Shown: positions 40,278 through 63,245, counted from the first letter of the stretch. The stretch is DNA of 64,000 nt from Ignavibacteriota bacterium (GCA_003170475.1 PMZI01000026.1:189173-253172), one strand, 5' to 3'. Made by a program: numbers and translations. Notes: a model not told the origin generated them from the sequence alone.

Positions 40278-41699
40278 ATGGCACTCCGTTCCTCAAAATA
40301 TGGCCGTGTTTTTGACCTCCTGCCGGAGATGATCTTTATTGTCGATAGTGATCAGAAGATTGTCGATCACAACGTGGTTGCGGCGACCGAGACAGGGTAT
40401 GCCCCGGTCGATCTTCTGCACAGTTCGTTTGAAATCATTCTTCAGCCCGAGCAACGAAGGACGCTCCTGAGCATTCTCAAGACGGACTACGGCGAGCAGT
40501 CGCTTGAGACGAAATTCGTCCGCGCCGATAAGACCATCATGGATGTTCAGGTAGACCTGAGAAGATTGTACACTGCGGAACGGTTCTATTCTGTCCTCAT
40601 CGCAAAGGATATCACGGAGCAGAAGAAGAAGGAACTTGACTACCTCCGATACTCCAACGTCATGCAGCACACGGTCAATCCCATACAGATCACCGATGCC
40701 AGCGGGAAAATGATCTACGTCAATCCTGCGTTTGAACGAGCGAGCGGATTTTCGAACGAAGAGCTCATTGGAAGGAATCCGAGAATCCTGAACAGTGGCA
40801 GATATTCGCGTGAGTTCTGGAAATCCGTGTGGGACCACATCACCACCCGCAAGGTGTGGGTTGGCGAAATTGAGAATAGAAGGAAAGATGGGAGTCCTTT
40901 CCACACCGAGTTGGTTATTTCGCCAATCGTGGATGGAAACGGACATATCGTGGGTTTTCTTGGTGCCCACCGTGATATTACAGAGCAAAAGATCCTTGAA
41001 CAACAGCTTGTGCGTTCTCAAAAAATGGAAAGCATCGGTACCCTTGCGGCGGGCATTGCTCACGAAGTTGGAAACCCTCTGACCTCTATCTCATCACTCG
41101 TGCAGGTTATCCAACGGACCACGGCGGATGAGTTCGCGAAGGACAAGTTGGAGTTGATCAAGGATCAGATTAATCGGATAGCCAGGATTATTAGAGACCT
41201 CGTCGATTTCTCCCGTCCCTCGTCCTACGTGATCAAGCCGACGGATGTCAACAAGGTCATTCGTGAGGCTCTGAACATCGTCCAGTACGGCAAGAAGGTT
41301 AAAGACATTGCTTTCACGCTTGAGTTGGCGGATGATCTGCAGAGCCTTCCCGTCGTGCCGGACCAGCTCGCGCAGGTCTTCATCAATATCCTCATGAATG
41401 CTGTCGATTCACTTGACGGGAAGCCCGGTTCAATTTGGATCCAATCACGTGTCGATGGGGAGATGGTGGAAGTGCTCGTCAAAGATACGGGGAAAGGAAT
41501 AGCTCCGGACGATCGCGAAAAAATCTTTGAACCGTTCTTTACGACGAAGGCGGTTGGGAAGGGGACTGGTCTCGGTCTGTGGGTTAGCTACGGAATAGTC
41601 CAGAGTTTTGGAGGAGACATCGAAGTCGATAGTGATCTTGGCAGAGGAAGCACATTCACAATTCAATTACCGGTCAATGGAAAAGAGCAGAGGAGTTGA
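40278..41699 (+). CDS. Two-PAS sensor histidine kinase (NtrB-like)
   Basis: 473 residues, soluble. PAS domains occupy about 10-120 ([22 protein letters not shown]) and 125-245 ([25 protein letters not shown], then the PAC segment [13 protein letters not shown]). The H-box is [21 protein letters not shown]; catalytic boxes are [26 protein letters not shown] and [18 protein letters not shown]. It is coupled by a 1-base stop/start overlap to an NtrC-type regulator, so it is very probably that regulator's kinase. A cytoplasmic cue, perhaps redox or ligand bound by PAS, is inferred. Confidence 0.93.
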
Positions 41700-43066
41700 T
41701 GGCAGAGCGCATTTTGGTTGTTGACGATGAGCAGATTATCCGGGAATCGCTGGGTTTCGTTCTGAAGAAAGAGGGATTCCAGGTAGAAGAGGCGGCTAAC
41801 GGCCGGGAAGCTCTATCAAAACAGGAAGCCCATCCGTTCGATGTTGTGATCTCAGATATTGAAATGCCCGAAATGCGGGGAATGGAGCTGTTGGAGCACA
41901 TCACCAAGCGGACGCCCCAGACCTTTGTTATCATGATCACTGCGTTCGCCTCGGTAGAAACGGCGATCGCGGCACTACGCCGGGGTGCATACGACTATGT
42001 CTTGAAGCCGATTGATTTCGATGATATCCTTCATCGGATCCGAAAGCTCCTCGAGCACCGCGCCTTGTCGCTTGAAAACTCATTGCTGCGGCAAGAGATC
42101 AACAGGACATATGATTTCGACCAGATCATCGGTCAAAGTCAAAGCATGAAGAACATCTTCCAGATCATTAAGCGGGTGGCCGGGAGTGACGGAACGGTCT
42201 TGATTACGGGGAAAAGTGGCACTGGAAAGGAACTGGTTGCAAGAGCCATCCACTACAACAGCAACCGGAAGGCGAAGAGATTCGTCGCCATCAATTGCGG
42301 CGCGATAGTGGAGACCCTTTTCGAGAGTGAGTTGTTTGGCCACAAGAAAGGATCATTTACCGGAGCGACGACCGACAAAGAAGGACTCTTCAAGGTTGCA
42401 GATGGAGGGTCGGTTTTCCTTGATGAGGTCAGCGAAATCCCGTTGCATCTTCAGGTCAAGCTGCTTCGGGCTATTGAACAGAAGGAAGTCATACCGGTCG
42501 GGCATACGGATCCAATCACCATCGACCTCCGCATCATTGCAGCGACCAACAGGGATCTCCGGCAGGAAGTAGAGAATGGAAAGTTCAGGGAGGATCTGTT
42601 TTATCGGCTGAACGTTGTGGAAGTGGACTTGCCGTCGCTCAGCGAGAGGAAAGAAGACATTCCGCTTCTCTGTCAACACTTCCTCGAAGCGTACAGGAAA
42701 CATATGGGGCGGCCCATCCAGGGATTCACGAATGAAGCGATGGGCGCGCTCATTCAGTACCAGTGGAAAGGCGAAGTCCGTGAACTCGAGAACGCGGTGG
42801 AACGAGCTGTTATCTTCTGTGACAAAGAATTCATCGGTCTTGAACACCTGCCGGATTACTTCCGTCTGATTGTAGCTCAGCATACGTCCATCGTCCCCGG
42901 TGGTCATCAGACCCTTCGCGATGCAGTCAAGGCCTTCGAGCGGACATATATCGAACAAGTGCTTGCGCAGAATGATCGCAACAAGGAAGCGACCGCTCTC
43001 GCCTTGGGGGTGAGTCTGTCGTCACTGTACCGGAAGATGGAAGAGCTCGAAATTCCGACCCGATAG
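41699..43066 (+). CDS. NtrC-family sigma-54-dependent response regulator
   Basis: 455 residues from ATG 41699 with AGGAG upstream. Receiver domain 1-120 (VVDDEQIIRESL, VISDIEMPEM, VLKPIDFD); AAA+ domain 140-380 with Walker A GKSGTGKE, the sigma-54 contact loop GSFTGA (a Ser for the second residue of GAFTGA) and Walker B GGSVFLDEVSEIP; then a Fis-type helix-turn-helix at the C terminus (NKEATALALGVSLSSLYRKMEEL). It activates sigma-54 polymerase when phosphorylated by the kinase encoded upstream. Sigma-54 elements in this window at 43218, 49604 and near the pilin-like genes are candidate targets. Confidence 0.94.
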   Translation: MAERILVVDDEQIIRESLGFVLKKEGFQVEEAANGREALSKQEAHPFDVVISDIEMPEMRGMELLEHITKRTPQTFVIMITAFASVETAIAALRRGAYDYVLKPIDFDDILHRIRKLLEHRALSLENSLLRQEINRTYDFDQIIGQSQSMKNIFQIIKRVAGSDGTVLITGKSGTGKELVARAIHYNSNRKAKRFVAINCGAIVETLFESELFGHKKGSFTGATTDKEGLFKVADGGSVFLDEVSEIPLHLQVKLLRAIEQKEVIPVGHTDPITIDLRIIAATNRDLRQEVENGKFREDLFYRLNVVEVDLPSLSERKEDIPLLCQHFLEAYRKHMGRPIQGFTNEAMGALIQYQWKGEVRELENAVERAVIFCDKEFIGLEHLPDYFRLIVAQHTSIVPGGHQTLRDAVKAFERTYIEQVLAQNDRNKEATALALGVSLSSLYRKMEELEIPTR

Positions 43067-44623: not shown

Positions 44624-45298
44624 GCCCACTCCTCCCCTCTGATACTGTGCAATCAAGCGACTGACAATCTGGTATTCTCCCGGCCTAGTTTTGATCTCCC
44701 CTGAACAGATGACGATACTTGATGATTTCGAACCCTCCTCCTTGCTTGGGAGCCCTCATTTCCCATCTTCGGAAATGGCCAAAGGTATTCAGGGCAAGAG
44801 TAATAATCAGGAACATGAACTCGCCGAGAAGATGGCTAAAATCTGACCATTTTGGCAATCATGCCTCTGGTTTCGTTGAAAAAATCGACGGCACGATAGT
44901 TGAAAATGTTTAACATCTGCCCGTGAAATCAATGGATTATGCTGAATTTATCAACAGTATTCGCTTTTGGGACGGGAATTTCAGCCGTCAGGCATGCTTG
45001 GCAGATCGAGACTTTTTCATGAGTCGGAATGAACGGGAGTTGAGTTTGCCAATCCTGAGAACAGAGCTAGATTTGTGTTAGGGGATAAGGGATTTCTTCC
45101 ATTTTTTGCAGTCTAGGAATGGTTCGCTGTTTTCTCATTTGCGGCACAAATATTGAACAGAAGTCAAGTATTCTCGTTCTCGGTAGGGGCCAGGGAGGTC
45201 CTAGAAACCGAAGTACATCTGCTCTCGCGCAAAGAAGATTTTGATTCAAATTGGAGTTATCTGTGAAACGGTTTAAAACAAATCAAGACGGAGGTTTT
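44624..45298 (+). other. 675-base intergenic region before the exported cytochrome
   Basis: Long and relatively AT-rich in its middle. I find no supported gene; a 64-codon frame at 44719 has no ribosome site and odd composition. No sigma-54 element with correct spacing is present. GGAGG at about 45289 serves the cytochrome start. A long regulated leader or an undetected small RNA is possible but not shown. Confidence 0.5.
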
Positions 45299-48205
45299 AT
45301 GAAGAGACATCTACTCGTTGGCATCCTCTTCCTGCTGATGATCTCAATCCTGTCGGGTCTTGTTCTGGCTCAGACCCAAACAGGTACGATCAAAGTTGTG
45401 GGTGTGCCCGACAGGTTCAAGAGTGCCAACAAGAATCAGGCGGCGACTGGATTGAAGACCATCGGAGTTGGCAGTCGTATCGTCCTGGCGCCGATGATCT
45501 ACAGCGGTACGGGTGGCCTGACAACCGACACCTTGAATCCAGTCTCTAGTGCTACTTGGACGTTGAAGAATCCGCTTGGCGTCACGAAGCCGATTCTGGA
45601 TACGGCAGCGGGACTCAATGGCAATTACGTCTACTTCGTTCCTGATACCGTGGGAGATTGGACCGTGACAATGACCGCGACGACAGCCAAGGGAACGACG
45701 ACACCAGTCTCGATAAGGGTCACCGCTTCCAAGTTTGTGGGTGAAGGAATCAGCTTGAAGTCGAACGGTGTTCCGAACGGTTGTGCTTGTCACCTCGTGG
45801 ACCCGACGAACTTCACCGATTGGCAGAAGACCAATCACGCAACGGCAGTCCAGCGGGCCGTCAACACAGCAGGTGGTCACTTCAGTTTTGGCAGTTGCAT
45901 GAGTTGCCATTCCGCCGGGGTCGATGGGGCTGTCGGAGTTGGAAACAATGGTTTCTTTGACATTGCGAAAACAGAAGGTTTCACCACGATTCCAGCGAAT
46001 AATCCTGGAGTCTATGACACGCTCGTCGCGAAGTATCCGAAGTCAATGGCATCGGCAGGGATCATGTGCGAAAACTGCCATGGTCCTGCAGGCCAACATG
46101 CTGGCGGCGCGGGCGTATTTCCGCAAGCGGGCGACAACAAATTGGATGAAACGCTCTCAGCTGATGTTTGTGCAGTATGCCACTTCTCGAGTGATCGACA
46201 TGGTATTGGCTACGCTTGGACAGGATCAGCACATGCAAACTCGACGGCCGAGGGAACTCAGGTTCAATTCACCGATCGTGCCGTTTGCGCAAAATGTCAC
46301 ACTGCGCAGGGGTATATCAATGAAACAATTGGCGGCAAGGCCCAACCGGTTCCCGCATCCGGCGCGTTGGTCTATCAGAATCCAATGCCCATCGGTTGCT
46401 CCACGTGTCATGATCCGCACAACGGTTCGAATGAAATGCAGCTCCGCGCCAAGACAGTGGGTGATGCCTGCATCGGTTGCCACGAGACTCGTCAGAGCAC
46501 ACGTGGCTTGCACACCTCGCATCAGGGCTCAATGCTGATCGGTGCGGACGCGAGTCCATTCACTCTGGACATAGTCAACGCGTATCTTCTCGCACCGTCC
46601 GGCTCAGTTCAACAGAACAACGCTGCGTACGGAATGTGGAGCGGATGGGAGTTCCCGGGTTACAACTACGAGAATTCTTCTCACAGCGGTATCAAAGAGC
46701 GTTGCGTAGCGTGTCACATGGCCAGTTCGCCATCGTTCCTTGCTGCGTCTGCTTCGAATTTCACAAAAGCGGATACCCTGATAACGAAACTCGGCGGCCA
46801 TACATTCAAGGTGGCTTTTGACAACATCGTTGGAAAAGACACCACAACGATTCTCAATCCGACCGGTTGTGCAGAATGCCACGGAACGGTTACCATGGAT
46901 TTTGTCGACTTGACCCAGGCCAAGACGAACAACTATCTGTCCACGTTGTATAATCTTTTGCCGAAGCGCGACACGATTGTGGCCGCAACAGCTCCAAAAG
47001 GAACGGCTATCCTCTTCACGGATACGATCGCATGGCAGAATCAGAAGAACGCGTCGGCATCAGCCAAGCGCAAACTCACTCTCACAGAGAGAGCAGCCGC
47101 CTACAACTTCCAGTTTGTGACCAACGACGGAAGCTTCGGCGTGCACAACTACAACTATGCGAAGGGTCTTCTCACTTCATCGATCGAGCAATTACAGCTC
47201 ACCGCCGGTGCAGCAAGCATTGCCTCAATCAAAGACGTTCCCTCCGACAATGGCCGAAAGGTTCAGGTCGTGTGGAATGCCTTCCCGGCCGAGCAATGGA
47301 GCTACAACACTGTGATCAACTACGGTGTGTGGAGAAAAGATCCGATGTTGCCCAGCCTGAACTCCGTGAAGAAGGCAAACAGTTTCACAGAGATGATGAA
47401 GGTAACGAGTCAAGGAAGCCAGGTAGTCATGGGTGGTAGCGTGTGGTCATATGTTGGCGGCGCGCCGGCTTCGAATCTGCCACAGTACTCCTTCGTTGCT
47501 CCGACGTTGTTCGATTCGACGAAGACCTCGGGTCAGCGCTGGACAGTGTTCTACATTGCCGGCTACTCGAAGGACAACGCAGTGGCGTACTCGACGCAAC
47601 CGGATAGCGGATACTCAACGGATAACATTTCACCGATCGCACCTCAGGTCGTCTCGGCTGGTTTCACGACGAACACCGTGACGATCAAGTGGAAGGCAAA
47701 TTCGGAGACCGATGTCTATGAGTATGCGATCTATCGCGGGACAACAGCTTCGTTCACACCATCGTCACCGTTGGTAAAGGTCCGGGGACTTCAGTATCAG
47801 GATGTGCTGAGTCAGACCGGAGGGACGTACTACTACAAGGTATCGGCAATTGACGCCTCTGGCAATGAGAGCCCCTACACCGCGGTAAGCATCTTGACAG
47901 GGGTCGAGAACTCGGGCGGAGTGCCGACGGAGTTTGCTCTTGGTCAGAATTATCCGAATCCGTTCAACCCAACCACCGAGATCACGTTTGCGATACCAAA
48001 GCAGACGAACGTGAAGGTCGTGGTCTACAACCTGGCGGGAGCCGAGATAGCGACGCTTGTCAATCAGTCGATGTCGGCAGGCAACTACCGGGCGATGTGG
48101 AATGGTCGCACGGACGATGGACGGACAGTGGCTAGCGGAGTATACTTCTACCATCTGCAGGCGGAAGGATTCACTGCCACCAAGAAAATGACCCTGTTAA
48201 AGTAA
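45299..48205 (+). CDS. T9SS-exported multiheme cytochrome c with FN3 domain
   Basis: 968 residues from ATG 45299 with GGAGG upstream. A signal peptide (HLLVGILFLLMISILSGLVLAQ) and an Ig-like N-terminal domain (about 30-155) precede a cytochrome region with eight CXXCH motifs: CMSCH, CENCH, CAVCH, CAKCH, CSTCH, CIGCH, CVACH, CAECH. One CxCH (GCACH) comes before them. A beta-rich middle, an FN3-like domain (TIKWKANSETDVYEYAIYRG) and a type A T9SS sorting tail (LGQNYPNPFNPTTEITF ... GVYFYHLQAEG) close the protein. It should cross the outer membrane by T9SS and stay at or leave the cell surface, placing hemes outside the cell. A MarR gene lies before it and the main cytochrome operon 1.5 kb after it. 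Confidence 0.9.
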   Translation: MKRHLLVGILFLLMISILSGLVLAQTQTGTIKVVGVPDRFKSANKNQAATGLKTIGVGSRIVLAPMIYSGTGGLTTDTLNPVSSATWTLKNPLGVTKPILDTAAGLNGNYVYFVPDTVGDWTVTMTATTAKGTTTPVSIRVTASKFVGEGISLKSNGVPNGCACHLVDPTNFTDWQKTNHATAVQRAVNTAGGHFSFGSCMSCHSAGVDGAVGVGNNGFFDIAKTEGFTTIPANNPGVYDTLVAKYPKSMASAGIMCENCHGPAGQHAGGAGVFPQAGDNKLDETLSADVCAVCHFSSDRHGIGYAWTGSAHANSTAEGTQVQFTDRAVCAKCHTAQGYINETIGGKAQPVPASGALVYQNPMPIGCSTCHDPHNGSNEMQLRAKTVGDACIGCHETRQSTRGLHTSHQGSMLIGADASPFTLDIVNAYLLAPSGSVQQNNAAYGMWSGWEFPGYNYENSSHSGIKERCVACHMASSPSFLAASASNFTKADTLITKLGGHTFKVAFDNIVGKDTTTILNPTGCAECHGTVTMDFVDLTQAKTNNYLSTLYNLLPKRDTIVAATAPKGTAILFTDTIAWQNQKNASASAKRKLTLTERAAAYNFQFVTNDGSFGVHNYNYAKGLLTSSIEQLQLTAGAASIASIKDVPSDNGRKVQVVWNAFPAEQWSYNTVINYGVWRKDPMLPSLNSVKKANSFTEMMKVTSQGSQVVMGGSVWSYVGGAPASNLPQYSFVAPTLFDSTKTSGQRWTVFYIAGYSKDNAVAYSTQPDSGYSTDNISPIAPQVVSAGFTTNTVTIKWKANSETDVYEYAIYRGTTASFTPSSPLVKVRGLQYQDVLSQTGGTYYYKVSAIDASGNESPYTAVSILTGVENSGGVPTEFALGQNYPNPFNPTTEITFAIPKQTNVKVVVYNLAGAEIATLVNQSMSAGNYRAMWNGRTDDGRTVASGVYFYHLQAEGFTATKKMTLLK

Positions 48206-48511
48206 GTCTGGATTTCTCCAAGGCGGGTGTTCTCAGGCATTGAGCCTGAGGACCCCGCCTTTTCATTTCCTGGAATGCCCTTGCATGAAAACGACCTAGC
48301 GGATAGGCTGAAAAGTCAATGCGGCAAAGGGTTTCTGTTTTTGAGAAAATGAGAAAGCAGTTATTGGAATTCGGTAATAGGCTGTTGGCGCAAATCAAAT
48401 AAGTGCGAAAATCAAGGTAACGACGCTAGTCGACACTTTCTGCCGATGAATTTCTCTACGAAATGAAGTTGGCATACATCTTGAGCGGTTTACCAAAGGA
48501 AAGTGACGACT
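48206..48511 (+). other. 306-base intergenic region
   Basis: Holds the terminator at 48220-48265. Just before the receiver gene is TTGGCATACATCTTGAGC (48469-48486), which has a sigma-54-like -24 half but GA in place of GC in the -12 half, so it is not called as a promoter. Confidence 0.4.
48220..48265 (+). terminator. Terminator after the exported cytochrome
   Basis: AAGGCGGGTGTTCTCAGGC (48220-48238) pairs with GCCTGAGGACCCCGCCTT (48244-48261) with small mismatches, followed by TTCATTT. Confidence 0.75.
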
Positions 48512-48940
48512 ATGTATCCGATAGGAACAACCACAGTGAAGAATGCTGCGAAAGACAAGCTCATCCAAAGTGATGGACGGAAGAGGGTTCTTGTCTTCAG
48601 TCCGGATGTGGCTTTGGCAAAGAGCCTTTCGCTATTGCTCGAGGATCAGTACGAGATTGCCTGCGAAACACAGCTGGACAATCTGAAGGGGACAATTGGC
48701 AATGCTTCGCCGGGGTTGTTGCTCATCGATCTGTTTTCGTTTCCGTCCGACATCTTGAAAGAGATCAACGTCCTCCGGACGAGTCGGCTCAAGGTGCCTG
48801 TTATCATCCTCCGTGTGTACCGACAGCTCAATCCTGAGATTGAAGAGACGATTAGAGATCTTTCGGATTTCGTATTCTACAAGCCTTTCGATGTTAACGC
48901 AGTAGCGGACGCGGTCCATAAGCTCCTGGATGGCCATTAG
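48512..48940 (+). CDS. Single-domain receiver protein (CheY-like)
   Basis: 142 residues from ATG 48512 with AAAGGAAAG upstream. Residues 27-142 form a receiver fold: RVLVFSPDVALAKSLSLLLED, LLLIDLFSF with the phosphorylatable Asp, PVIILRVYR and the conserved Lys in FYKPFD. The first acidic position is SPD instead of DD, so phosphorylation may be weak or altered. No output domain. It is directly followed by a DksA-like zinc-finger gene and lies between the exported cytochrome and the main cytochrome operon, so it may relay a redox or kinase signal there. Confidence 0.78.
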   Translation: MYPIGTTTVKNAAKDKLIQSDGRKRVLVFSPDVALAKSLSLLLEDQYEIACETQLDNLKGTIGNASPGLLLIDLFSFPSDILKEINVLRTSRLKVPVIILRVYRQLNPEIEETIRDLSDFVFYKPFDVNAVADAVHKLLDGH

Positions 48941-48998
48941 CGAGCCGGTCGCTCCGCGCTTCTTCACCTCCTCGGCGGTTCGAAAGGGGGGAAGTGCT

Positions 48999-49358
48999 GT
49001 GAAAGCAACAACAGACCTGAGCCAAGTCAAGCTCGTGATGCTCCGGCAGCTTGATACCACCCTGCGGCAAAACTACCATCAAACCCTCATCGAAGTTCTC
49101 AACGAGCTCAGAATGCGGAGTGTCGTCTCTCAACCTGATCCATCGCCTGACAAGGTTTTCTCCGTCATCCTGCAGACGCACGTACTGACATACAAGCCGA
49201 CTCCGTCAGTTCAGCGCCTCCGAGAGGCGTTGGAGCGGATGACATACGGCAAGTTCGGGTTATGCATTCGATGTGGCAGAGAGATTGCCATTGAGACCCT
49301 GCTTGGTGATCCGACAGTCTCCTCTTGTGCCCACTGTCAAGGGAGAGCCAACGGCTGA
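48999..49358 (+). CDS. TraR/DksA-type zinc-finger protein
   Basis: 119 residues from GTG 48999 preceded by GGGGGAAG; an ATG at 48930 overlaps the receiver gene and is less likely. An N-terminal coiled coil (LRQLDTTLRQNYHQTLIEVLNELRM) leads to the C4 zinc finger CIRCGREI-(11)-SSCAHC typical of DksA/TraR proteins, with the FGLCIRCGREI hallmark. Such proteins enter the polymerase secondary channel and adjust transcription with or without ppGpp. The acidic DxxDxA tip motif of DksA is not obvious. Last gene before the sigma-54 promoter of the cytochrome operon. Confidence 0.82.
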   Translation: MKATTDLSQVKLVMLRQLDTTLRQNYHQTLIEVLNELRMRSVVSQPDPSPDKVFSVILQTHVLTYKPTPSVQRLREALERMTYGKFGLCIRCGREIAIETLLGDPTVSSCAHCQGRANG

Positions 49359-49686
49359 GAGTTGGCCCCGCCGATCTCAAAAAATGGCGCAGTTCCTCCC
49401 GCCTTCATGATTCTGTACCTCTTCCACCCCAGCAATGTTCATTGGATATCCGTGTCTTGTGGATCTTGATCTGGGTGAAGTTTGGTTTCTCCAATCTGAG
49501 AATCTGTTTCTTTCACTTCTCGCACGGGAGAAAGCCATCGAAGGAGCGACACCAAATTGTTGTTATTTGTTAAGGAATTCGCGTGATCCAGAGTCACCGA
49601 GGCTGGCACGGGACTTGCGAGAAAATGGTTGAATATTTGGGCTTTGTTTGATTGTAGAGAAATTCAGCAGGCAATTAATCAAGAAA
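49359..49686 (+). other. 328-base intergenic region before the cytochrome operon
   Basis: No gene supported. Contains the near-consensus sigma-54 promoter at 49603-49618. TTGTTGTTATTTGTTAAG (about 49557-49574) upstream of it shares TTGTTGTT with a stretch at about 43099 ahead of the other sigma-54 promoters; an activator site is possible but unproven. Confidence 0.5.
49603..49620 (+). promoter_or_regulatory. Sigma-54 promoter of the cytochrome operon
   Basis: CTGGCACGGGACTTGCGA matches TGGCACG-N4-TTGC at every conserved base, with GG (49605-49606) and GC (49617-49618) ten bases apart. Transcription would start near 49630, and the first cytochrome ATG is at 49687. This ties the operon to an NtrC-type activator such as the one encoded at 41699. 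Confidence 0.85.
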
Positions 49687-51873
49687 ATGAGAGAATACTC
49701 AAGACTTGTGTTCGTGCTGATTGTCTTTCTGGCGTGGATGGTTCTTTCCGTTCACGCTGATGCTCAATCGCGCGAAGACTGCCTCGCATGTCACAGTGAC
49801 AAGTCGCTGACAATGGAGAAGAAGGGAAAGCAGGTCTCCATTTACGTCGATGCGGCAGTATTTGAAAAGTCCTCGCACAGAAAGATGTTATGTGTTTCGT
49901 GCCATGTCGGCTTCGACCCAGAGAACGTTCCTCATAAAGCGAAGATTGATCCGGTAAACTGCAGAGCGTGCCACAAAGATGCTCCCTTGAAACACCAGTT
50001 CCATCCTCAGATGAATCTTGCTTCTGGTGCGAGCGGAGGATCAGGAGTTGATTGCAAGGACTGCCACGGATCGCACGATGTTGCGTCACCCAAGGAGCCC
50101 GGCTCCAGGTTCAATGCTTCGAAGCTCACGGATTTCTGTGGATCATGCCATCGAGATGTGGGAAGAACTTTCGCGCAGTCTTCTCACCGGCATGCGCAGA
50201 TTGCCGGCGTCAAAGGTGCTCCGAGCTGCATCGAGTGTCATAGAAACCAAATCGCTCACGTGAGCGCGGCGCGGGATACCACGCAGCTCAAGATCGCCCA
50301 GGAGAAGCTTTGCCTTTCATGCCATCTCGATGATCCGAACGTCAAGGCTGCGATGTCGCCGACAACCGGATTCATCGCCGCGTACGAAGGAAGTGTTCAC
50401 GGCGCGGCACTGCAGCGTGGAAATGGAAAGGCAGCAAATTGTGTCGATTGCCACGGCAGTCATGAGATGAAGAAGGGGTCCGATCCGACTTCGCGCGTTG
50501 CGAAAGCGAACATCCCTCAGACTTGCGCAAAATGTCACGCGAGTGTTGCCAATGAATATGGCTACAGCGTTCACGGGTTGGCAGTCAAAAACGGCAACAT
50601 GTCGGCGCCTGTATGCACGGATTGTCACGGTGAGCACAACATCCTGAAGACTTCGGATCCTCGCTCGCCTGTGGCCGCGGGAAATGTCTCAAGTCAGGTG
50701 TGTTCACCTTGCCATAGCTCGGTAAAACTCAGTGAGAAGTTTGGTCTCGCCAGCGATCGTTTCAAGAGTTTTTCGGACAGCTATCATGGGCTTGCCGGCA
50801 AGGCTGGATCCGTCCAGGTTGCAAATTGTGCGAGCTGTCATGGTGTCCATGATATCAAGCGATCAACTGATCCGTCGTCAAGAATCAACAAGGCGAATCT
50901 TGTCAAGACCTGCGGTACATGCCATCCCGGTGCCAATGAGAATTTCACGAAGGGGGCCGTCCACATCGTCGCCAGCGAGAAGAAGGATGATATTCTGTCT
51001 CTGGTCTCTACCGGATATATTATTCTGATTGTCGTGACGATCGGTGGCATGTTCTTCCACAATGTGCTCGATTTCATAAAGAAGTCCAGGCGCCAGCTCA
51101 TGTATCGCCGCGGTTTGCTTCCATGGCCTACGGTTGGTCACCGATTGTATCTCCGGATGTCGTTGGCTGAACGCATTCAGCATGCCACCTTGTTGATTAG
51201 TTTCATTACGTTGGTTTTGACAGGATTTGCATTGAAGTATCCGGATGCATGGTGGGTGGCACCTCTTCGCGATGTCAGTCCTGTGATGTTTGAACTTCGC
51301 GGAATCCTGCACCGGGTCGCAGCAGTCGTGATGGTCACGGCAAGTCTCTATCATGTGTACTACGTATTCTTCGTGCCGCGAGGCAAACAGCTGATTCGCG
51401 ATCTGTTTCCAAGACTTGAGGACGTAACAGACGCCATCGGCGTATTCAAACATAACCTCGGGATATCGCCTGCAAAGCCGAAGTTTGCCCGATTCAGCTA
51501 TGCCGAAAAAGCTGAGTACTGGGCTCTCATTTGGGGAACGATCGTTATGGCCGTCACCGGCGTCATCCTCTGGTTTGATAATACCTTCCTCGGACTATTG
51601 ACAAAGTTGTGGTGGGATGTTGCCCGCACGGTGCACTACTACGAGGCGTGGTTAGCAACGCTTTCGATTATCGTGTGGCATTTCTACTTCGTGATCTTCA
51701 ATCCTGATATCTATCCCATCAACCTGGCGTTCTGGAAAGGAACGCTGACGGAAGAAGAGATGGAAGAAGAACATCCTCTTGAACTCGAAGAAATCCGTGA
51801 CGCGGAGATGAAAAAGGCGATGAAGGAAGCGAGCGAACAACAGGACCAGAAATCGGCCGAGGCCAAGAAGTAA
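49687..51873 (+). CDS. 13-heme cytochrome c fused to membrane cytochrome b (CbcL-like)
   Basis: 728 residues from ATG 49687 (a TTG at 49648 is in frame). A signal peptide (LVFVLIVFLAWMVLSVHADAQ) is followed by 13 CXXCH motifs between residues 30 and 425: CLACH, CVSCH, CRACH, CKDCH, CGSCH, CIECH, CLSCH, CVDCH, CAKCH, CTDCH, CSPCH, CASCH, CGTCH. From about residue 437 five membrane helices form a FdnI/HydC-type cytochrome b domain (GYIILIVVTIGGMFFHN, ATLLISFITLVLTGFALKY, GILHRVAAVVMVTASLYHVYY, YWALIWGTIVMAVTGVILWF, LATLSIIVWHFYFVIF) with paired histidines for two b hemes. This is the architecture of Geobacter CbcL, a quinol oxidase feeding periplasmic cytochromes. First gene of the operon. Confidence 0.9.
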   Translation: MREYSRLVFVLIVFLAWMVLSVHADAQSREDCLACHSDKSLTMEKKGKQVSIYVDAAVFEKSSHRKMLCVSCHVGFDPENVPHKAKIDPVNCRACHKDAPLKHQFHPQMNLASGASGGSGVDCKDCHGSHDVASPKEPGSRFNASKLTDFCGSCHRDVGRTFAQSSHRHAQIAGVKGAPSCIECHRNQIAHVSAARDTTQLKIAQEKLCLSCHLDDPNVKAAMSPTTGFIAAYEGSVHGAALQRGNGKAANCVDCHGSHEMKKGSDPTSRVAKANIPQTCAKCHASVANEYGYSVHGLAVKNGNMSAPVCTDCHGEHNILKTSDPRSPVAAGNVSSQVCSPCHSSVKLSEKFGLASDRFKSFSDSYHGLAGKAGSVQVANCASCHGVHDIKRSTDPSSRINKANLVKTCGTCHPGANENFTKGAVHIVASEKKDDILSLVSTGYIILIVVTIGGMFFHNVLDFIKKSRRQLMYRRGLLPWPTVGHRLYLRMSLAERIQHATLLISFITLVLTGFALKYPDAWWVAPLRDVSPVMFELRGILHRVAAVVMVTASLYHVYYVFFVPRGKQLIRDLFPRLEDVTDAIGVFKHNLGISPAKPKFARFSYAEKAEYWALIWGTIVMAVTGVILWFDNTFLGLLTKLWWDVARTVHYYEAWLATLSIIVWHFYFVIFNPDIYPINLAFWKGTLTEEEMEEEHPLELEEIRDAEMKKAMKEASEQQDQKSAEAKK

Positions 51874-51877
51874 CGGA

Positions 51878-53902
51878 ATGGAAGAATTGGTTCACACTTT
51901 GACCAATCGCTCTAGGAAAGACGCTCGCTCGAGCTTCCGGTGGCTCGGGCTGGTGTTTTTCGCTGCTCTCTGGCTTGTGCCAGCGATGGGTCAGGAGAAC
52001 TCCGATTGTTTCGCTTGTCACAGCGACAAGGCGTTGACCGGCACGAAGACGGGGAAATCGTTCCCGGTGTTTATCGACGAGAAGAGATTCGGAGAGTCGG
52101 TTCACTCGGCACTCACCTGCGTCTCATGCCATACCGACCTGGAAGGAAAAGAACTGCCGCACGCCGAGGGTCTGGCGGAGGTGAAGTGCGGAACCTGCCA
52201 TGCAACGGAGCAGGAGCTTCATGCGAAATCGCTTCATGGAAAAGCTATTGCTCGGGGAGATGCACTTGCACCGCGGTGCAAAGACTGTCACGGCAAACAT
52301 GATATCCTGTCGGCTAAGAATCGCATGTCTCCGACCTCAGTCTTGAAGGTTCCGTTCCTCTGCGGTAAGTGTCACACAGAGGGATCTCCGGTCACAGCCC
52401 AGAGAACGATCCATCAGGATCACATCCTGGAGAATTTCTCTGAGAGTATCCATGGTCAGGCGCTGTTCAAGAAAGGGCTTATCGTTGCACCCAACTGCGT
52501 GTCGTGCCACACGCCGCACTCCATTCTTCCTCACACAGATCCGGCATCGTCGATCGCTCGTCGCAACATCGCTGCGACGTGCACGAAGTGCCATGCCCAG
52601 ATCGAGGTTGTGCATCGGAAGGTCATCCGTGGAGAACTCTGGGAAAAGGAAGCAAACAAATTACCGGCATGCGTCGACTGCCATCAGCCGCATAAGATTC
52701 GCAAAGTCTTCTACACGCAGGGAATGGCCGACAAGGATTGCCTCGGATGCCACGAGAGACGGGATCTGAAATCATCGAAGGATGGTCGTTCTCTGACAGT
52801 GAAGATCGAGGAATTGGGAGACTCGAGACACCAGAAAGTGTCATGTAGCCAATGCCATTCCGAAGTCAGCGTTTCTCATCTCCGGCCTTGTGAGACGATC
52901 ACAAAGAAAGTGGAGTGTTCCTCCTGTCACGCGGAGGTTGCACAGCAATATCAGGTGAGCATACACGGGAAGCTCGTGAGCAAGAACGATCCGAACGGTC
53001 CGACCTGCAAGGATTGTCACGGGACGCACAGTGTCCTTGGAAAATTGAGCCCCAACTCGCCCACGTTTCCCACGAATGTCCCAGGCTTGTGTGCACGGTG
53101 CCATCGTGAAGGACAGAAGGCGGCGGCACGGTACACGGGCAGTCAACATGAAATCATCGAGCATTACACAGAGAGCATCCATGGCAAAGGGTTGATGAAG
53201 AGCGGTCTCACGGTTACCGCCACCTGCACCAGTTGCCATACTCCGCACAGTGTATTGCCCAAGACCGACACATTGTCAAGCGTAAACCGGAAAAACGTTC
53301 CTCAAACGTGCGGCCGCTGCCATCATGGCATCGAAGAACAATTTGAGCGCAGTATCCATTCTGTGCTTGTGAGTAAGACGGACAAAGAGTTGCCGGTGTG
53401 TAACGATTGCCACACGGCGCACACCATCCGACGTGCAGACGAGACCGGATTCAAGCTGGAGATCATGCAACAATGCGGACGTTGTCATGAGGCGATTGCG
53501 AAAACATATTTCGATACCTATCACGGAAAAGTATCGCAGCTCGGATACACGAAAACAGCGAAGTGCTATGACTGTCACGGTGCCCACGATATTCTGGCCA
53601 CTGCCGATCCTCAATCCCATTTGAGTCGCCAGAATGTCGTCGCGACGTGTCAGAAATGCCATGCTGGCGCCACACGCAAGTTCGCCGGATATTTGACACA
53701 TGCGACGCATCATGATCCTCAGAAATACCCGTTTCTCTTCTGGACATTCTGGGGCATGACATCGCTGCTCGTAGGGACATTTGTTATTGGTGGAATTCAC
53801 ACGCTCCTCTGGCTGCCGAGAGCTCTGCAGATGAAGCGGGCAAATCGGAAACGAATGGAGCAAGAGAACAAAGGAAAGAATGGAAACGACAAAGAAGCCT
53901 GA
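51878..53902 (+). CDS. 19-heme membrane-anchored cytochrome c
   Basis: 674 residues, four bases after the preceding gene. Signal peptide (WLGLVFFAALWLVPAMGQ), then 19 CXXCH motifs from CFACH near residue 45 to CQKCH near 590, and one C-terminal membrane helix (about 620-645, GMTSLLVGTFVIGGIHTLLWL) with a basic cytoplasmic tail. The heme region contains an internal repeat: ESIHGQALFKKGLIVAPNCVSCHTPHSILP recurs as ESIHGKGLMKSGLTVTATCTSCHTPHSVLP. Its gene overlaps that of the cytochrome b that follows, so the two should form a complex equivalent to the fused protein upstream. Confidence 0.9.
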   Translation: MEELVHTLTNRSRKDARSSFRWLGLVFFAALWLVPAMGQENSDCFACHSDKALTGTKTGKSFPVFIDEKRFGESVHSALTCVSCHTDLEGKELPHAEGLAEVKCGTCHATEQELHAKSLHGKAIARGDALAPRCKDCHGKHDILSAKNRMSPTSVLKVPFLCGKCHTEGSPVTAQRTIHQDHILENFSESIHGQALFKKGLIVAPNCVSCHTPHSILPHTDPASSIARRNIAATCTKCHAQIEVVHRKVIRGELWEKEANKLPACVDCHQPHKIRKVFYTQGMADKDCLGCHERRDLKSSKDGRSLTVKIEELGDSRHQKVSCSQCHSEVSVSHLRPCETITKKVECSSCHAEVAQQYQVSIHGKLVSKNDPNGPTCKDCHGTHSVLGKLSPNSPTFPTNVPGLCARCHREGQKAAARYTGSQHEIIEHYTESIHGKGLMKSGLTVTATCTSCHTPHSVLPKTDTLSSVNRKNVPQTCGRCHHGIEEQFERSIHSVLVSKTDKELPVCNDCHTAHTIRRADETGFKLEIMQQCGRCHEAIAKTYFDTYHGKVSQLGYTKTAKCYDCHGAHDILATADPQSHLSRQNVVATCQKCHAGATRKFAGYLTHATHHDPQKYPFLFWTFWGMTSLLVGTFVIGGIHTLLWLPRALQMKRANRKRMEQENKGKNGNDKEA

Positions 53903-54779
53903 TTCAGAATCTCCGGGACTGACCTCATCCGAGGTTCCGCCCACAGGATCCGAAGAAAAGCAATTCCTTCGGTTCAAGAGATTGAATCGGATCCTTCATA
54001 TTGTCATGATTGTAAGTTTCATGAGCCTTGCACTGACCGGCATGACGCTCAAGTTCGCGTATACCGGTTGGGCGGCTTTTCTTTCGCGCCTCTTCGGAGG
54101 ATTCGAATCTGCCGGCTACATCCATCGAGTGGCAGCGGTCGCGATGATCGGGATCTTCATTGCGCACATTGTGGACATCGTCAGAATGAAAAGGCACCAC
54201 TACACGTCGTGGCGCTCATTCATCTTCGGTCCCGATTCCATGGTGTTCAACAGGAAAGATCTTCGGGATCTGATCGGCAACTTCAAATGGTTCATTGGCC
54301 GAGGTCCACGGCCCGCGTACGGAAGGTGGACCTACTGGGAGAAATTCGACTACTTCGCAGTCTTCTGGGGAATCGCGGTGATCGGATCGACGGGCTTGAC
54401 GCTTTGGTTCCCCGAGTTTTTCACGAGGTTCATTCCCGGATGGTACCTGAACGTCGCGACGATTATCCACAGTGACGAGGCGTTGCTCGCTGTCGGGTTC
54501 ATTTTCACGGTGCATTTCTTTAACACGCATCTCCGTCCGGAGAAGTTCCCGATGGACATCGTCGTCTTCACTGGCCGAATGACTCTTGACGAACTTAAGG
54601 AGGACAAACCGGAGGAGTATGAAGCGCTCGTCAAGACAGGCAAACTCGATGTGTCCATGGTCGAGCAATATCCCCCGATTGTCATCAGAGTGATACGGAC
54701 TTTCGCATGGACCGCGCTCTGCGTAGGATTCAGTATCGTCATTTGGATTATTTATGCCATGCTCTTCGCGTATCAATAA
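53880..54779 (+). CDS. Membrane cytochrome b subunit (FdnI/HydC-type)
   Basis: 299 residues; its ATG lies 23 bases inside the end of the 19-heme gene. Five helices: [84 protein letters not shown] and [19 protein letters not shown]. Histidines in helices 1, 2 and 4 can bind two b hemes. [13 protein letters not shown]-type loop sequence corresponds to FNPDIYPIN in the b domain of the CbcL-like fusion, so the two b modules are paralogues, one split and one fused. Expected role: quinol oxidation with transfer to the 19-heme partner. Confidence 0.9.
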
Positions 54780-54870: not shown

Positions 54871-56361
54871 ATGAAACGCATTTTCCCAGCTTCCTTCTAT
54901 AACCCTGTGACGCTTGTCGGCGCCGCGATTGCTGCCGTTAGCCTGGGGCTTATTGCGTTCTTGATGGTGATTGAGAGTTTTGCGGAAAACCCGAAGCCAT
55001 ACATGGGAATTGTCGCGTTTGTGTTGCTTCCTGGAGTGATGATTGTCGGTCTTGCCATTCTAATATTTGGGATTCTCCGTGAGCGACGAAGAGTGCATGC
55101 GGGAAAACCTGAAACGCATCTCCCGATCATTGACCTGAATAATCCTAAGCATCGCACGGCCTTTGTCTTTTTCTCTTTTGGGACGATCCTTCTTCTGATA
55201 CTTTCGGCGTTCGGCAGTTTCAAGGCGTATGAGCACACCGATTCTGATCAATTCTGCGGCGAGACATGTCACAAGGTGATGGAGCCGGAATATACGGCCT
55301 ATGAGTACTCTCCACATGCACGCGTCGGATGTGTAAAGTGCCACATCGGTCCGGGGGCGGGCTGGTTTGTCCGTTCGAAATTGTCCGGTGCATATCAGGT
55401 ATATGCAACGTTGTTCAACAAATACCCAACTCCAATCCCGACTCCCATCGAGAACTTGCGTCCTGCTCAGGAAACGTGCGAGCAATGCCATTGGCCGAAG
55501 CAATTCTTCAGTCAGAAGGAGTTGATGAATACCTATTTCACTTCTGATGAGAACAATACCAGGTGGTCGCTGAATCTGCTGGTCAAAGTCGGAGGCGGAA
55601 ACATTGAGGCCGGTCCTACATCGGGCATTCACTGGCACATGAACATCGCCAATGAAGTGACGTACGCGGCTGTAGACACCCAGCGACAGGTCATCCCTTG
55701 GGTTCGGATAAAAACTGCAGAAGGCAAGATCATCACTTACAAATCGACGGAATCAACGCTTTCTGATGCAGAGATCCAGAAGATTCAGAAGCGGCGGATG
55801 GATTGCATCGATTGTCACAATCGTCCGACGCACATCTATCATCCGCCGGCACGATCGATCGATCATGTGATGTCATTAGGTTGGATCGACCCCGAGTTGC
55901 CGAACATCAAAAGCGTTGCGGTGAAGGCTTTGGAGCATCCCTACACAACCAAGCCTGCGGCGTTGGACAGCATCAAGCAGGAGATTGGTGAGTTCTATCG
56001 TTCGAATCACCCCGATGTCGCGGCAAAAAAGAGTGCGCAGATTGACCGTGCCATCGCCGAAGTGCAGAAGATCTACAGCCGAAACTACTTCCCTGAAATG
56101 CATGTCAGCTGGAAGAAGTTCAACGACAACATCGGGCACATGTATTATCCCGGATGCTTCCGTTGCCATGATGGGAAGCACGTGTCGGAAGAAGGAAAGG
56201 TGCTTTCGAGGGACTGCAATGTCTGTCACACGATTCTTGCACAACAAACAGAGAAAGATGATCTGCGCATCTCCCTTCAGGGCGTCGAGTACAAGCATCC
56301 CGTGGACATCGGAGATGCGTGGAAGGAAATGAACTGCAGCGATTGTCACAATTCCCAGTAA
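54871..56361 (+). CDS. Seven-heme NapC/NirT-type membrane cytochrome (ImcH-like)
   Basis: 496 residues. Three membrane helices lie before the heme part (LVGAAIAAVSLGLIAFLMVI, YMGIVAFVLLPGVMIVGLAILIF, RTAFVFFSFGTILLLILSAF). A NapC/NirT domain follows with SPHARVGCVKCHIGPGAGWFVRSKLSG. Heme motifs: an unusual CGETCH (CX3CH), then CVKCH, CEQCH, CIDCH, CFRCH, CNVCH, CSDCH. Three helices plus seven heme sites match the layout described for Geobacter ImcH, an inner-membrane quinol-oxidising cytochrome used with high-potential acceptors. It is followed by the Rieske/cytochrome b unit. The ImcH comparison is by architecture only. Confidence 0.85.
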   Translation: MKRIFPASFYNPVTLVGAAIAAVSLGLIAFLMVIESFAENPKPYMGIVAFVLLPGVMIVGLAILIFGILRERRRVHAGKPETHLPIIDLNNPKHRTAFVFFSFGTILLLILSAFGSFKAYEHTDSDQFCGETCHKVMEPEYTAYEYSPHARVGCVKCHIGPGAGWFVRSKLSGAYQVYATLFNKYPTPIPTPIENLRPAQETCEQCHWPKQFFSQKELMNTYFTSDENNTRWSLNLLVKVGGGNIEAGPTSGIHWHMNIANEVTYAAVDTQRQVIPWVRIKTAEGKIITYKSTESTLSDAEIQKIQKRRMDCIDCHNRPTHIYHPPARSIDHVMSLGWIDPELPNIKSVAVKALEHPYTTKPAALDSIKQEIGEFYRSNHPDVAAKKSAQIDRAIAEVQKIYSRNYFPEMHVSWKKFNDNIGHMYYPGCFRCHDGKHVSEEGKVLSRDCNVCHTILAQQTEKDDLRISLQGVEYKHPVDIGDAWKEMNCSDCHNSQ

Positions 56362-56461: not shown

Positions 56462-56920
56462 ATGGCTGAATCTACCGAGCCGATGGATACTCAAGAAAAC
56501 AGAAGAGACTTCCTCAAGTATTTCCTTGGGGGTGGTCTGATTGCGTGGCTGGCTGCGATTCTCTATCCTATGATGGCCTATCTCAAGCCGCCGAAGCAGG
56601 CCGAAGTGGAAGTGACAAGTGTGAAGGCGGGCAAGGTCGGGGCCGTAGAAAAAGACAGCGGCACCATCGTCCGGTTTGGAAACAAGCCGGTTATTCTCCT
56701 GAGGAATGCTGCCGGCGAGTTCCGGGCATTCTCGGCGACGTGCACACATCTTGATTGCACGGTGCAGTATCGAAAAGATATGGGCCTCATCTGGTGTGCG
56801 TGTCACAACGGTCGTTATGATCTGAACGGCCGCAATGTTGCAGGACCTCCGCCGCGCCCTCTGGATGAATATCGGGTTGTGATCCAAGGTGAAGACATAC
56901 TGATTTCCAAAAAAGCATGA
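56462..56920 (+). CDS. Rieske [2Fe-2S] protein of a cytochrome bc complex
   Basis: 152 residues. A twin-arginine motif ([17 protein letters not shown]) and one membrane helix (20-41) precede the Rieske domain. Cluster motifs are Cys94-Thr-His96-Leu-Asp-Cys99 and Cys112-Ala-Cys114-His115, so ligands Cys94, His96, Cys112, His115 and the disulfide pair Cys99/Cys114 are all in place. It takes the first electron from quinol at the outer site of the cytochrome b encoded next; the start of that gene overlaps this one by four bases. Confidence 0.95.
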
Positions 56921-57996
56921 AGACACTCTGGTCAAAAACCTATCATTGGATCAACGAACGCGTCGAGCTCGACGGGCTTGTCGAGTTCATGGGCAAGAAG
57001 TACGTACCCGTGAACAGCCATTCCATCTGGTATTACTTTGGCGGCGTGTCATTATTCCTCTTCATTATTCAGGTTGTCACGGGCATTCTGCTCCTCCTCT
57101 ACTACAAGGGGGGAGAGGCACTGGCGTTTGAGAGCATACAATTCATCATGTCCAAGGTGCAGTTTGGATGGTTGATCCGATCGATCCACAGCTGGACGGC
57201 GAACCTGTTCATACTGACTGCATTGATCCATATGTTCAGCGTTTATTTCGGAAAGGCGTATCGCAAGCCTCGGGAAATTACCTGGGTGACGGGAATGTTG
57301 ATGTTCTTCCTTGCGATGGGATTCGGATTCAGCGGCTATCTGCTGCCGTGGAACGAGCTGGCCTTTTTTGCAACCAAGGTAGGCACGGACATCGCAGGAG
57401 CCGTCCCGGTTGTTGGCAAACCGATGATGGTATTCCTCCGAGGCGGTGAAGAAGTAACGGGAGCAACCCTCTCTCGCTTCATCGGTTTCCACGTTGCGGT
57501 GTTGCCGGGTCTTTTCACTGTTCTCCTGGGAATCCACTTGCTTCTGGTCCAGCGACAGGGAATGAGTGAACCATTGTCGTACGAAGAAGAAAGTCCGAAG
57601 GAACGCAAGACAATGCCGTTTTTCCCAAACTTCCTTCTCCGTGACATGCTTCTCTGGCTGATTGTTCTCAATCTTCTGGCGATTCTGGCGGTGTTCTTTC
57701 CGTGGGAGCTTGGCAAGAAGGCCGATTTGTTTGCTTCTGCGCCCGCGGGGATCAAACCTGAATGGTACTTCCTCTTCATGTTCCAGACTCTGAAGTACAT
57801 CCCGGGTAAAGTTTTCGTGTTCGATGGTGAAGTGCTCGGTATCATGACTTTTGGGCTCGGAGGGTTGTTGTGGTTGTTGGTTCCCTTCTGGGATCGCAAG
57901 AGTTCCCGCGGTGAGCGAAACCGATTTATCAACTATATCGGTTTGTTCATCGTGCTCTACATCATCATTCTGACAATCGTCGGGTGGATCCTATGA
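56917..57996 (+). CDS. Cytochrome b of a bc-type complex (fused b6/subunit IV)
   Basis: 359 residues with about eight helices. Heme ligands: the pairs in [16 protein letters not shown] and [17 protein letters not shown], the second with the 14-residue gap seen in b6-type proteins. The quinol-site motif [14 protein letters not shown] is present. The protein joins the b6-like N-terminal part and the subunit IV-like part in one chain. Start and stop overlap both neighbours by four bases (ATGA), so Rieske, cytochrome b and the 11-heme protein are made as one complex; the multiheme protein would replace cytochrome c1 or f. Confidence 0.95.
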
Positions 57997-59468
57997 ACCG
58001 AATCACGCGAATGATGATGGGGATAGCACTCCTCGTGTGCGTTTCGGCGAACGCTCTGCGTGCACAGGACAAATGCCTGAGTTGTCATGAGGCCACTGTC
58101 GGCGGCCAACCGGTTGAGATGTTCAAGCACGATATTCATCATGCAAAGGGAATTTCGTGCGCCGGTTGTCATGGCGGTGACTCAAAGACGGAAGAAATGG
58201 ATCAGGCGATGAACGCCAAAGCGGGATACATTGGAGTCCCGAAGGGAGACGAGATCTCCAAGGCATGTGCCAACTGTCACGCCAATGCGGCGAAGATGAA
58301 GAGCTTTGGCTCCAATCTGCCGACGAATCAGTTCCAAAATCTTCAGGAAAGCGTTCACGGGAAGCTGGCGACCAACGGCAAAGAGCGTATCGTTCAGTGC
58401 ACGACGTGTCACAATGCTCATGGGATTGTGGCGGTGCGCAATGCGTCATCCCCTGTGTTCCCGCTCAATATTGTGAAGACATGCACCAAGTGTCATGCTG
58501 ATGCGGCGTTCATGCGAATGTACAATCCATCGCTTCCGGTGGACCAGTTGGACAAGTACCGAACAAGCGTGCACGGGATTCGCAATGCAAAAGGGGACGC
58601 GAAGGTTGCTCAGTGTGCCAGCTGTCATGGGAGCCATGATATCCGAAATGCAAAAGACACGAAATCAAAAGTCTATGCAACCAATGTCCCATCGACGTGT
58701 GCACATTGCCACAGCAATGCCGAGTATATGAAGGAATACAAGATTCCGACGGACCAATTTGACAAGTTTTCGAAGAGTGTTCACGGGGTTGCGCTGTTGA
58801 CGAAGCATGATCTTGGAGCTCCGGCGTGCAATAGCTGCCACGGAAATCATGCCGCCACGCCTCCCGGCATATCGTCGGTTTCCAAAGTGTGTGGAACATG
58901 TCACGCGTTAAATGCCGATCTGTTCTCTGCAAGTCCGCACAAAAAGGCGTTCGACGATCGCAAGCTGCCCGAGTGCGAGACATGCCACAGCAATCACGAG
59001 ATCATCGTCGCCACGAACAAGTTGCTTGGTGTGACAAGTGAGGCCGTTTGCAGCCGCTGCCACAGCGAGGCGCAGAATGCAAAAGGATATGCGGCTGCCA
59101 AAGCGATGAGAAGTCTCATCGACAGTCTGGAGAACAACGAAAAGAAGGCCTCCGAATTGGTGAACGAAGCTGAGCAAAAGGGAATGGAAATCTCTGAGGC
59201 GAAGTACAAGCTCCGGGACGCTCATCAAGCGCGGCTCGAATCGCGGACGATGGTTCATGCTTTCAATGAGGGACGATTCAGAGAAGTCGCATCGAAAGGA
59301 CTTGTCGTATCGGCGACCGTGTCGGCGGAAGCCACAGATGCGTTGGACGAATACGTTTTTCGACGCATCGGACTCGGTCTCGCAACGCTCGCAATCACGA
59401 TCCTGGCTATTTCATTGTATGTTTACATTCGTCGTATTGAACGTCGACAAGCTAAGGGAGTTCAGTAG
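57993..59468 (+). CDS. 11-heme cytochrome c, membrane-anchored partner of the bc complex
   Basis: 491 residues from ATG 57993 (overlapping the cytochrome b stop). Signal peptide ([19 protein letters not shown]), eleven CXXCH motifs between residues 20 and 355 (CLSCH, CAGCH, CANCH, CTTCH, CTKCH, CASCH, CAHCH, CNSCH, CGTCH, CETCH, CSRCH), a helical coiled stretch ([18 protein letters not shown]) and a C-terminal membrane helix ([19 protein letters not shown]) with a basic tail. It stands in the place of cytochrome c1, giving a Rieske/b/multiheme complex comparable to Geobacter Cbc complexes. Confidence 0.92.
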
Positions 59469-61985: not shown

Positions 61986-61995
61986 CAAGAATCCT

Positions 61996-63234: not shown

Positions 63235-63245
63235 GCGAAAAACCT

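Follow-up and report, generated by a model that had tools for sequence, protein, structure and literature searches.

The window, i.e., the whole 64,000-nucleotide stretch of DNA from an Ignavibacteriota bacterium that was analysed (GCA_003170475.1 PMZI01000026.1:189173-253172), carries a gene for a multiheme cytochrome of the OcwA type that ends in a C-terminal sorting domain (CTD) of the type IX secretion system (T9SS). The gene and its parts are located as follows:

45290 to 45294, plus strand: Shine-Dalgarno-like GGAGG, 4 nt before the ATG, read from the sequence
45299 to 48205, plus strand: T9SS-tailed OcwA-type multiheme cytochrome, 968 aa; ATG at 45299, stop at 48205
45299 to 45370, plus strand: signal peptide, aa 1-24, MKRHLLVGILFLLMISILSGLVLA
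45386 to 45733, plus strand: N-terminal beta (Ig-like) region, aa ~30-145, kept in alignment A1; fold inferred only
45776 to 47218, plus strand: nine-heme electron-transfer/catalytic domain, aa ~160-640; A1 profile against OcwA 6I5B, E 5.7e-34
45782 to 45793, plus strand: heme site 1, C162-A-C164-H165 (CX1CH; CX2CH in most relatives)
45896 to 45910, plus strand: CXXCH 2 (CMSCH), counterpart of OcwA open heme 2 in the alignment
46067 to 46081, plus strand: CXXCH 3 (CENCH)
46169 to 46183, plus strand: CXXCH 4 (CAVCH)
46286 to 46300, plus strand: CXXCH 5 (CAKCH), counterpart of OcwA open heme 5 in the alignment, the position of the NrfA active-site heme
46397 to 46411, plus strand: CXXCH 6 (CSTCH)
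46469 to 46483, plus strand: CXXCH 7 (CIGCH)
46703 to 46717, plus strand: CXXCH 8 (CVACH)
46868 to 46882, plus strand: CXXCH 9 (CAECH)
47144 to 47146, plus strand: H616 (DGSxGVHN), invariant His at the OcwA distal ligand position by alignment
47219 to 47893, plus strand: FN3/Ig-like linker, aa 641-865
47894 to 48202, plus strand: type A T9SS C-terminal sorting domain, aa 866-968 (NYPNPFNP...KKMTLLK); TIGR04183 37.3 bits, AF2 pLDDT 89
48220 to 48261, plus strand: strong hairpin with a U run behind it, probably a terminator, from RNA folding

That a single chain combines a type A T9SS tail with eight CXXCH motifs and a signal peptide, as claimed in the first-pass annotation, was confirmed at these coordinates. 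By hydropathy, the N-terminal hydrophobic segment spans residues 4-28 and is single, similar N-termini being found in 48 of 50 relatives; hydropathy and a sequence scan over the whole chain revealed neither a second transmembrane segment nor a lipobox. The FN3-like domain named in the same annotation is only weakly backed, since Pfam fn3 does not match the 968-aa protein and gave just a sub-threshold match (E 5e-4) in an orthologue (L018). The corresponding stretch (641-865) is an optional insert, missing in the relatives of about 700 aa and occurring also in heme-less T9SS cargos. Because of the strong terminator-like hairpin after the stop codon, overlooked by a simple terminator scan and revealed by RNA folding, the cytochrome gene is probably a transcription unit of its own and not part of one operon with the downstream electron conduit.

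The neighbors of the cytochrome gene include regulators on the upstream side, where a MarR gene follows the PAS kinase and the sigma-54 regulator, and an extended set of electron-transfer genes on the downstream side:

40278 to 41699, plus strand: PAS sensor histidine kinase, conserved neighbor
41696 to 43066, plus strand: sigma-54 response regulator, conserved neighbor
48503 to 48940, plus strand: small REC-like protein, conserved neighbor, no family match
48930 to 49358, plus strand: DksA/TraR-type zinc finger protein, conserved neighbor, weak Pfam match
49648 to 51873, plus strand: 13-CXXCH cytochrome fused to a cytochrome b561 domain
51878 to 53902, plus strand: 19-CXXCH cytochrome
53880 to 54779, plus strand: cytochrome b561-like membrane protein
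54871 to 56361, plus strand: NapC/NrfH-type 6-CXXCH cytochrome
56462 to 56920, plus strand: Rieske protein
56917 to 57996, plus strand: cytochrome b/b6
57984 to 59468, plus strand: 11-CXXCH cytochrome
60672 to 61985, plus strand: porin-like beta-barrel candidate, sub-threshold Porin_4
61972 to 63234, plus strand: 14-CXXCH cytochrome, its gene overlapping that of the barrel; candidate porin-cytochrome conduit
63231 to 64000, plus strand: lipobox-bearing multiheme cytochrome, 7 CXXCH and CX4CH sites (PF09698), continuing past the window end to L064:2501

The last of these is likely the outer cytochrome of the porin-cytochrome set. The neighborhood with the 13-/19-heme cluster is conserved in several genera, and parts of the gene order are found again next to the T9SS cytochrome at loci of the same genus (L066, L067, L068), family (L059, L071), order (L078, L085, L206) and class (L079); L066 and L010 are one contig and entered the counts a single time.

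The eight canonical CXXCH motifs (at residues 200, 257, 291, 330, 367, 391, 469 and 524) are not of chance origin, which was ruled out by shuffling: 5000 shuffled copies contained 0.006 CXXCH on average and 1 at most. The earlier label "octaheme" understates the number of sites, as CACH 162-165 aligns with a ninth site, the Cys/Cys/His of which is invariant in 38 relatives. In fact, all nine C/C/H sites are invariant across the 38 sequences of the heme-domain alignment A1, which reaches down to 28% identity, and the same is true of H180, H267, H374, H405, H462, H501 and H616, with H312 nearly so. Site 1 is peculiar in its spacing, being CX1CH in the genus of the window and in L021, CX3CH in two relatives, CX5CH in one and CX2CH in most. 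The unusual spacings fall on several branches of the tree, and the alignment shows no change in either Cys, in the His or in H180. This pattern fits either a heme still held by the unusual spacing or a site that has been relaxed only recently; hence, the window protein is best described as having eight canonical heme sites and an uncertain one (CX1CH). No literature pairing "CXCH" with heme and cytochrome c was found in open-access papers.

Heme attachment in this organism is probably of the Ccm type, since its genome contains CcmF and lacks ResB. A second CcmF-type heme lyase is encoded about 0.4 kb past the window end (L064:2566-4830; C27:253565-255829), beside the porin-cytochrome genes, and is possibly dedicated to unusual heme motifs.

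The fold of the heme domain was inferred from profile alignment, because the AF2 model of the whole protein, built from two sequences, reached a pLDDT of only 28.5 and was discarded. A search of the PDB with the family profile retrieved 6I5B at 120.7 bits (E 5.7e-34); a PDB search with the single sequence did not recover this structure. The entry corresponds to OcwA of Thermincola potens, a nonaheme protein proposed as the terminal reductase at the cell surface; its fold is akin to those of NrfA, MccA and cytochrome c554, and it transfers electrons to solid acceptors and shuttles as well as to nitrite and hydroxylamine (PMC6703420). ONR, NrfA and MccA also match the family profile, at 58-38 bits. 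The pockets at the open hemes 2 (HH281/282) and 5 (HH380/381) of OcwA correspond to R300-H301 and H405-T406 in the window protein, and H301 is kept in 33 and H405 in all of the 38 relatives. The offset of 29 in the OcwA numbering is itself inferred and agrees with both published His-His pairs. The OcwA Met that we take to be the ligand of heme 9 aligns with H462 in the HMMER alignment; this assignment is tentative, the column being gapped in a second alignment. According to the passages of PMC7829351 that deal with the OcwA tree, OcwA has already been set among nonahemes of Gram-negative bacteria, and T9SS is not mentioned in these passages.

The tail scores 37.3 bits with TIGR04183 (cut-off 23) and 27.7 bits with CHU_C (cut-off 27), and falls marginally short of the cut-off of 27 with the Pfam Por_Secre_tail PF18962 (26.7 bits). 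Residues 866-968, modeled with AF2 together with 34 other CTDs, gave a pLDDT of 89.2 and a pTM of 0.80. Its best-scoring VIA match, with Z 10.1 and an rmsd of 2.3 Å across 89 residues, is the PorU CTD; the CTDs of PorZ (Z 8.7) and mirolase (Z 8.1) are matched as well. Since other Ig-like domains score 8-9.5, the fold alone is unspecific, and the specificity of the tail rests on the sequence profile, on its place at the very end of the chain and on the T9SS genes.

These genes are present in the same genome, where SprA (1118 bits), PorU (974) and PorV (292) all exceed the curated cut-offs, along with about 100 CTD cargos, i.e., unrelated proteins with similar tails; SprA was detected in 290 of the 294 genomes of the class. 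According to a review, Ignavibacteriota may possess T9SSs (PMC11285876), and the paper on the Melioribacter genome reports CAZymes that bear the Por domain (PMC3534657). The absence of T9SS genes (porU, sov/sprA, porM/L), named in the first-pass annotation as fatal to the idea of export, was thus met only in part: SprA, PorU and PorV were recovered, but no match to PorL/PorM (GldL/GldM) over the cut-off was obtained in this genome or in those of the class. GldL exceeds its cut-off in 36 of 148 genomes of the phylum, all of them outside the class of the window. The PorL/PorM motor of the class is taken to be divergent or replaced, i.e., not recognizable, which is not read as a sign of a missing T9SS.

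The pairing of a CXXCH array with a T9SS CTD, sought as a check on the initial reading, extends over many families of the class: by profile counting, the CTD is present on all 68 distinct complete relatives with at least seven CXXCH. It is absent from three complete 5-6-heme homologues, and of the remaining multiheme ORFs at these loci just 4 of 39 bear it. Judged by sequence comparison, the tail is a conserved feature of the family and not an accidental fusion. The relatives come in three sizes (about 520, 700 and 900-1000 aa). At E 1e-30, the profile is matched by 65 of 395 genomes of the phylum, a count which takes in the short 5-6-heme homologues; all but two are in the class of the window. 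A class-wide tally of 294/294, inflated by CTD-only matches, was rejected as a family count in favor of this one. One member from outside the class (L190) is full length and CTD-tailed, and an orthologue 77% identical to the window protein sits on a contig labeled Ignavibacteriales. The search for relatives in viral contigs yielded one weak locus, which was not used. In the genome of the window, the cytochrome is the sole CXXCH-bearing ORF among the 100 CTD ORFs fetched; therefore, this genome does not tag cytochromes in general.

Several variations on this architecture were encountered. The short (about 520 aa) OcwA-type members at L194-L199 lack the N-terminal beta region and are still CTD-tailed. 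At L067, L059, L074 and L077, the OcwA-type cytochrome is adjoined by multiheme proteins from other families (7-9 CXXCH, 526-961 aa) that bear a T9SS tail too, and more than one cytochrome family may be exported by the T9SS. A genome of the same genus (G204) carries tandem copies of the T9SS cytochrome (L068, 8662-11605 and 11666-14544), both split into two frames at residues about 188-221; sequencing error, decay and frameshifting were not distinguished as the cause.

Taken as a whole, these data make it probable that the window protein belongs to a class-wide, hitherto undescribed family of nine-heme cytochromes of the OcwA type with a type A CTD, which are loaded with heme, exported by the T9SS and operate as surface reductases, even if their location, heme content and activity are without experimental evidence. 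In the proposed sequence of events, the chain would cross the inner membrane via Sec, and heme loading by c-type (CcmF-type) maturation in the periplasm, followed by folding, is inferred. The CTD would then be recognized by the translocon (SprA/PorV), and the holo-protein would pass the outer membrane; PorU would remove or replace the tail, and the cytochrome is presumed to end up either attached to the cell surface or set free from it. On this outer side, it may dock to, and receive electrons from, the adjacent quinol-to-outer-membrane multiheme pathway (cytochrome b, the 13-/19-heme cytochromes, the porin-like barrel with the 14-heme cytochrome), handing them over to extracellular acceptors, e.g., Fe(III) minerals, humics or oxyanions, where both the direction of flow and the substrate are inferred as well. 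The addressing of a multiheme cytochrome to the T9SS, as initially proposed, is supported by the CTD on all complete relatives and by SprA, PorU and PorV in the genome, and we infer that such export very likely takes place. The further proposal of a surface terminal reductase suited to the nearby conduit finds support in the OcwA homology and in the conserved multiheme/cytochrome b cluster; this role, like the location and activity it implies, is an inference that we regard as rather likely. More speculative is the suggestion that covalent heme is kept at C162-A-C164-H165, so that the family would be a natural nonaheme one binding its first heme via 1-5-residue spacers (CX1CH, CX2CH, CX3CH, CX5CH), perhaps with the help of a CcmF-type lyase of its own, and exported fully loaded by a T9SS without a recognizable PorLM motor; we put it forward tentatively, as a possibility that may well not hold.

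The main functional rival to the terminal reductase of solid acceptors is a protein that is likewise exported by the T9SS and mainly reduces small soluble compounds (nitrite, hydroxylamine and other N/S oxyanions) or serves in detoxification. The activities of OcwA toward nitrite and hydroxylamine, its membership in the NrfA/c554/MccA fold group, the profile matches of ONR, NrfA and MccA, and the distal His largely kept at both open hemes (H301 and, in all relatives, H405) would agree with such a function. At the same time, one His of each OcwA His-His pair is replaced (R300, T406), and the adjoining genes encode large electron-conduit cytochromes, and we consider this option unlikely. The flow of electrons might also be inward, from extracellular donors such as Fe(II), partner cells or cathodes, given that multiheme chains are reversible in principle and the direction is not fixed by sequence. 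The closest characterized homologue, OcwA, is a terminal reductase, however, and the nearby quinol-linked NrfH/cytochrome b modules suit an outward flow, even if able to run backwards; uptake appears decidedly improbable.

Two other alternatives question the export itself. NrfA, octaheme nitrite reductase and MccA are periplasmic enzymes, and direct location data for the window protein are lacking, so one might envisage an NrfA-like respiratory enzyme of the periplasm with a vestigial CTD. A vestige is difficult to reconcile with the retention of the CTD in all 68 complete relatives across a divergence to about 28% identity, with the kept KKMxLxK terminus and with the intact SprA, PorV and PorU, and little weight is left for this possibility. 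Still less can be given to the tail being a generic FlgD-like or Ig domain for protein contacts and no T9SS signal, which we find barely credible: the CTD profile does match FlgD Ig domains too, but the tail occupies the extreme C-terminus, exceeds the TIGR04183 cut-off, has the PorU CTD as its best structural match, with the PorZ and mirolase CTDs listed as well, and has about 100 counterparts on unrelated cargos of the same genome.

To our knowledge, respiratory cytochromes reach the surface of Gram-negative cells by type II secretion or as exported lipoproteins, and the pairing of a T9SS tail with a cytochrome may represent an undescribed way to put respiratory wires on the bacterial surface. 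No literature on T9SS together with multiheme proteins, and none joining type IX secretion, multiheme cytochromes and extracellular electron transfer, was found among open-access papers; subscription papers and preprints were outside the scope of both searches, so the novelty is unproven. A class-wide T9SS route, if true, would explain how metal- and electrode-respiring Ignavibacteria-like bacteria build their outer face, and would carry the OcwA type of reductase beyond its Gram-positive model, into cells that possess an outer membrane. The combination of nine heme sites and a CTD provides a simple genomic marker for such cytochromes. Such a route also raises the question of whether the T9SS can move a rigid folded nine-heme protein, and of what powers it in a class without visible PorLM.

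Among the known systems, the type A cargos of the T9SS (gingipains, RemA, CAZymes) resemble the window protein in combining a signal peptide with a type A CTD, the genome of the window having SprA, PorV and PorU, but no multiheme cytochrome cargo was found in the open-access literature. MtrC and OmcA, ten-heme outer-membrane lipoproteins that use type II secretion, share the role of a surface reductase and a weak PF22113 match (35 bits) with the window protein, which differs from them by the absence of a lipobox, by 8 CXXCH plus one CX1CH and by a heme order of the OcwA/NrfA type. Membership in the MtrC/MtrF type was rejected, as the Pfam match spans the heme arrays only and the lipobox and ten CXXCH are not met. 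NrfA, octaheme nitrite reductase and MccA belong to the same fold group as the C-terminal hemes of the window family, but the catalytic heme of NrfA is bound by CXXCK, and the window protein has CXXCH there. The second-best solved relative, 6QVM (97.6 bits over about 360 residues), which we take to be OmhA of Carboxydothermus ferrireducens, has 11 hemes and comes from a Gram-positive organism. The closest likeness is that to OcwA, with nine hemes in identical order: all nine motifs map one to one, and most axial His and the DGSxGVHN motif align. OcwA, however, operates in a Gram-positive host that has no T9SS, whereas the window protein has its heme 1 site as CX1CH and bears an added N-terminal beta region, the FN3-like part and the CTD.
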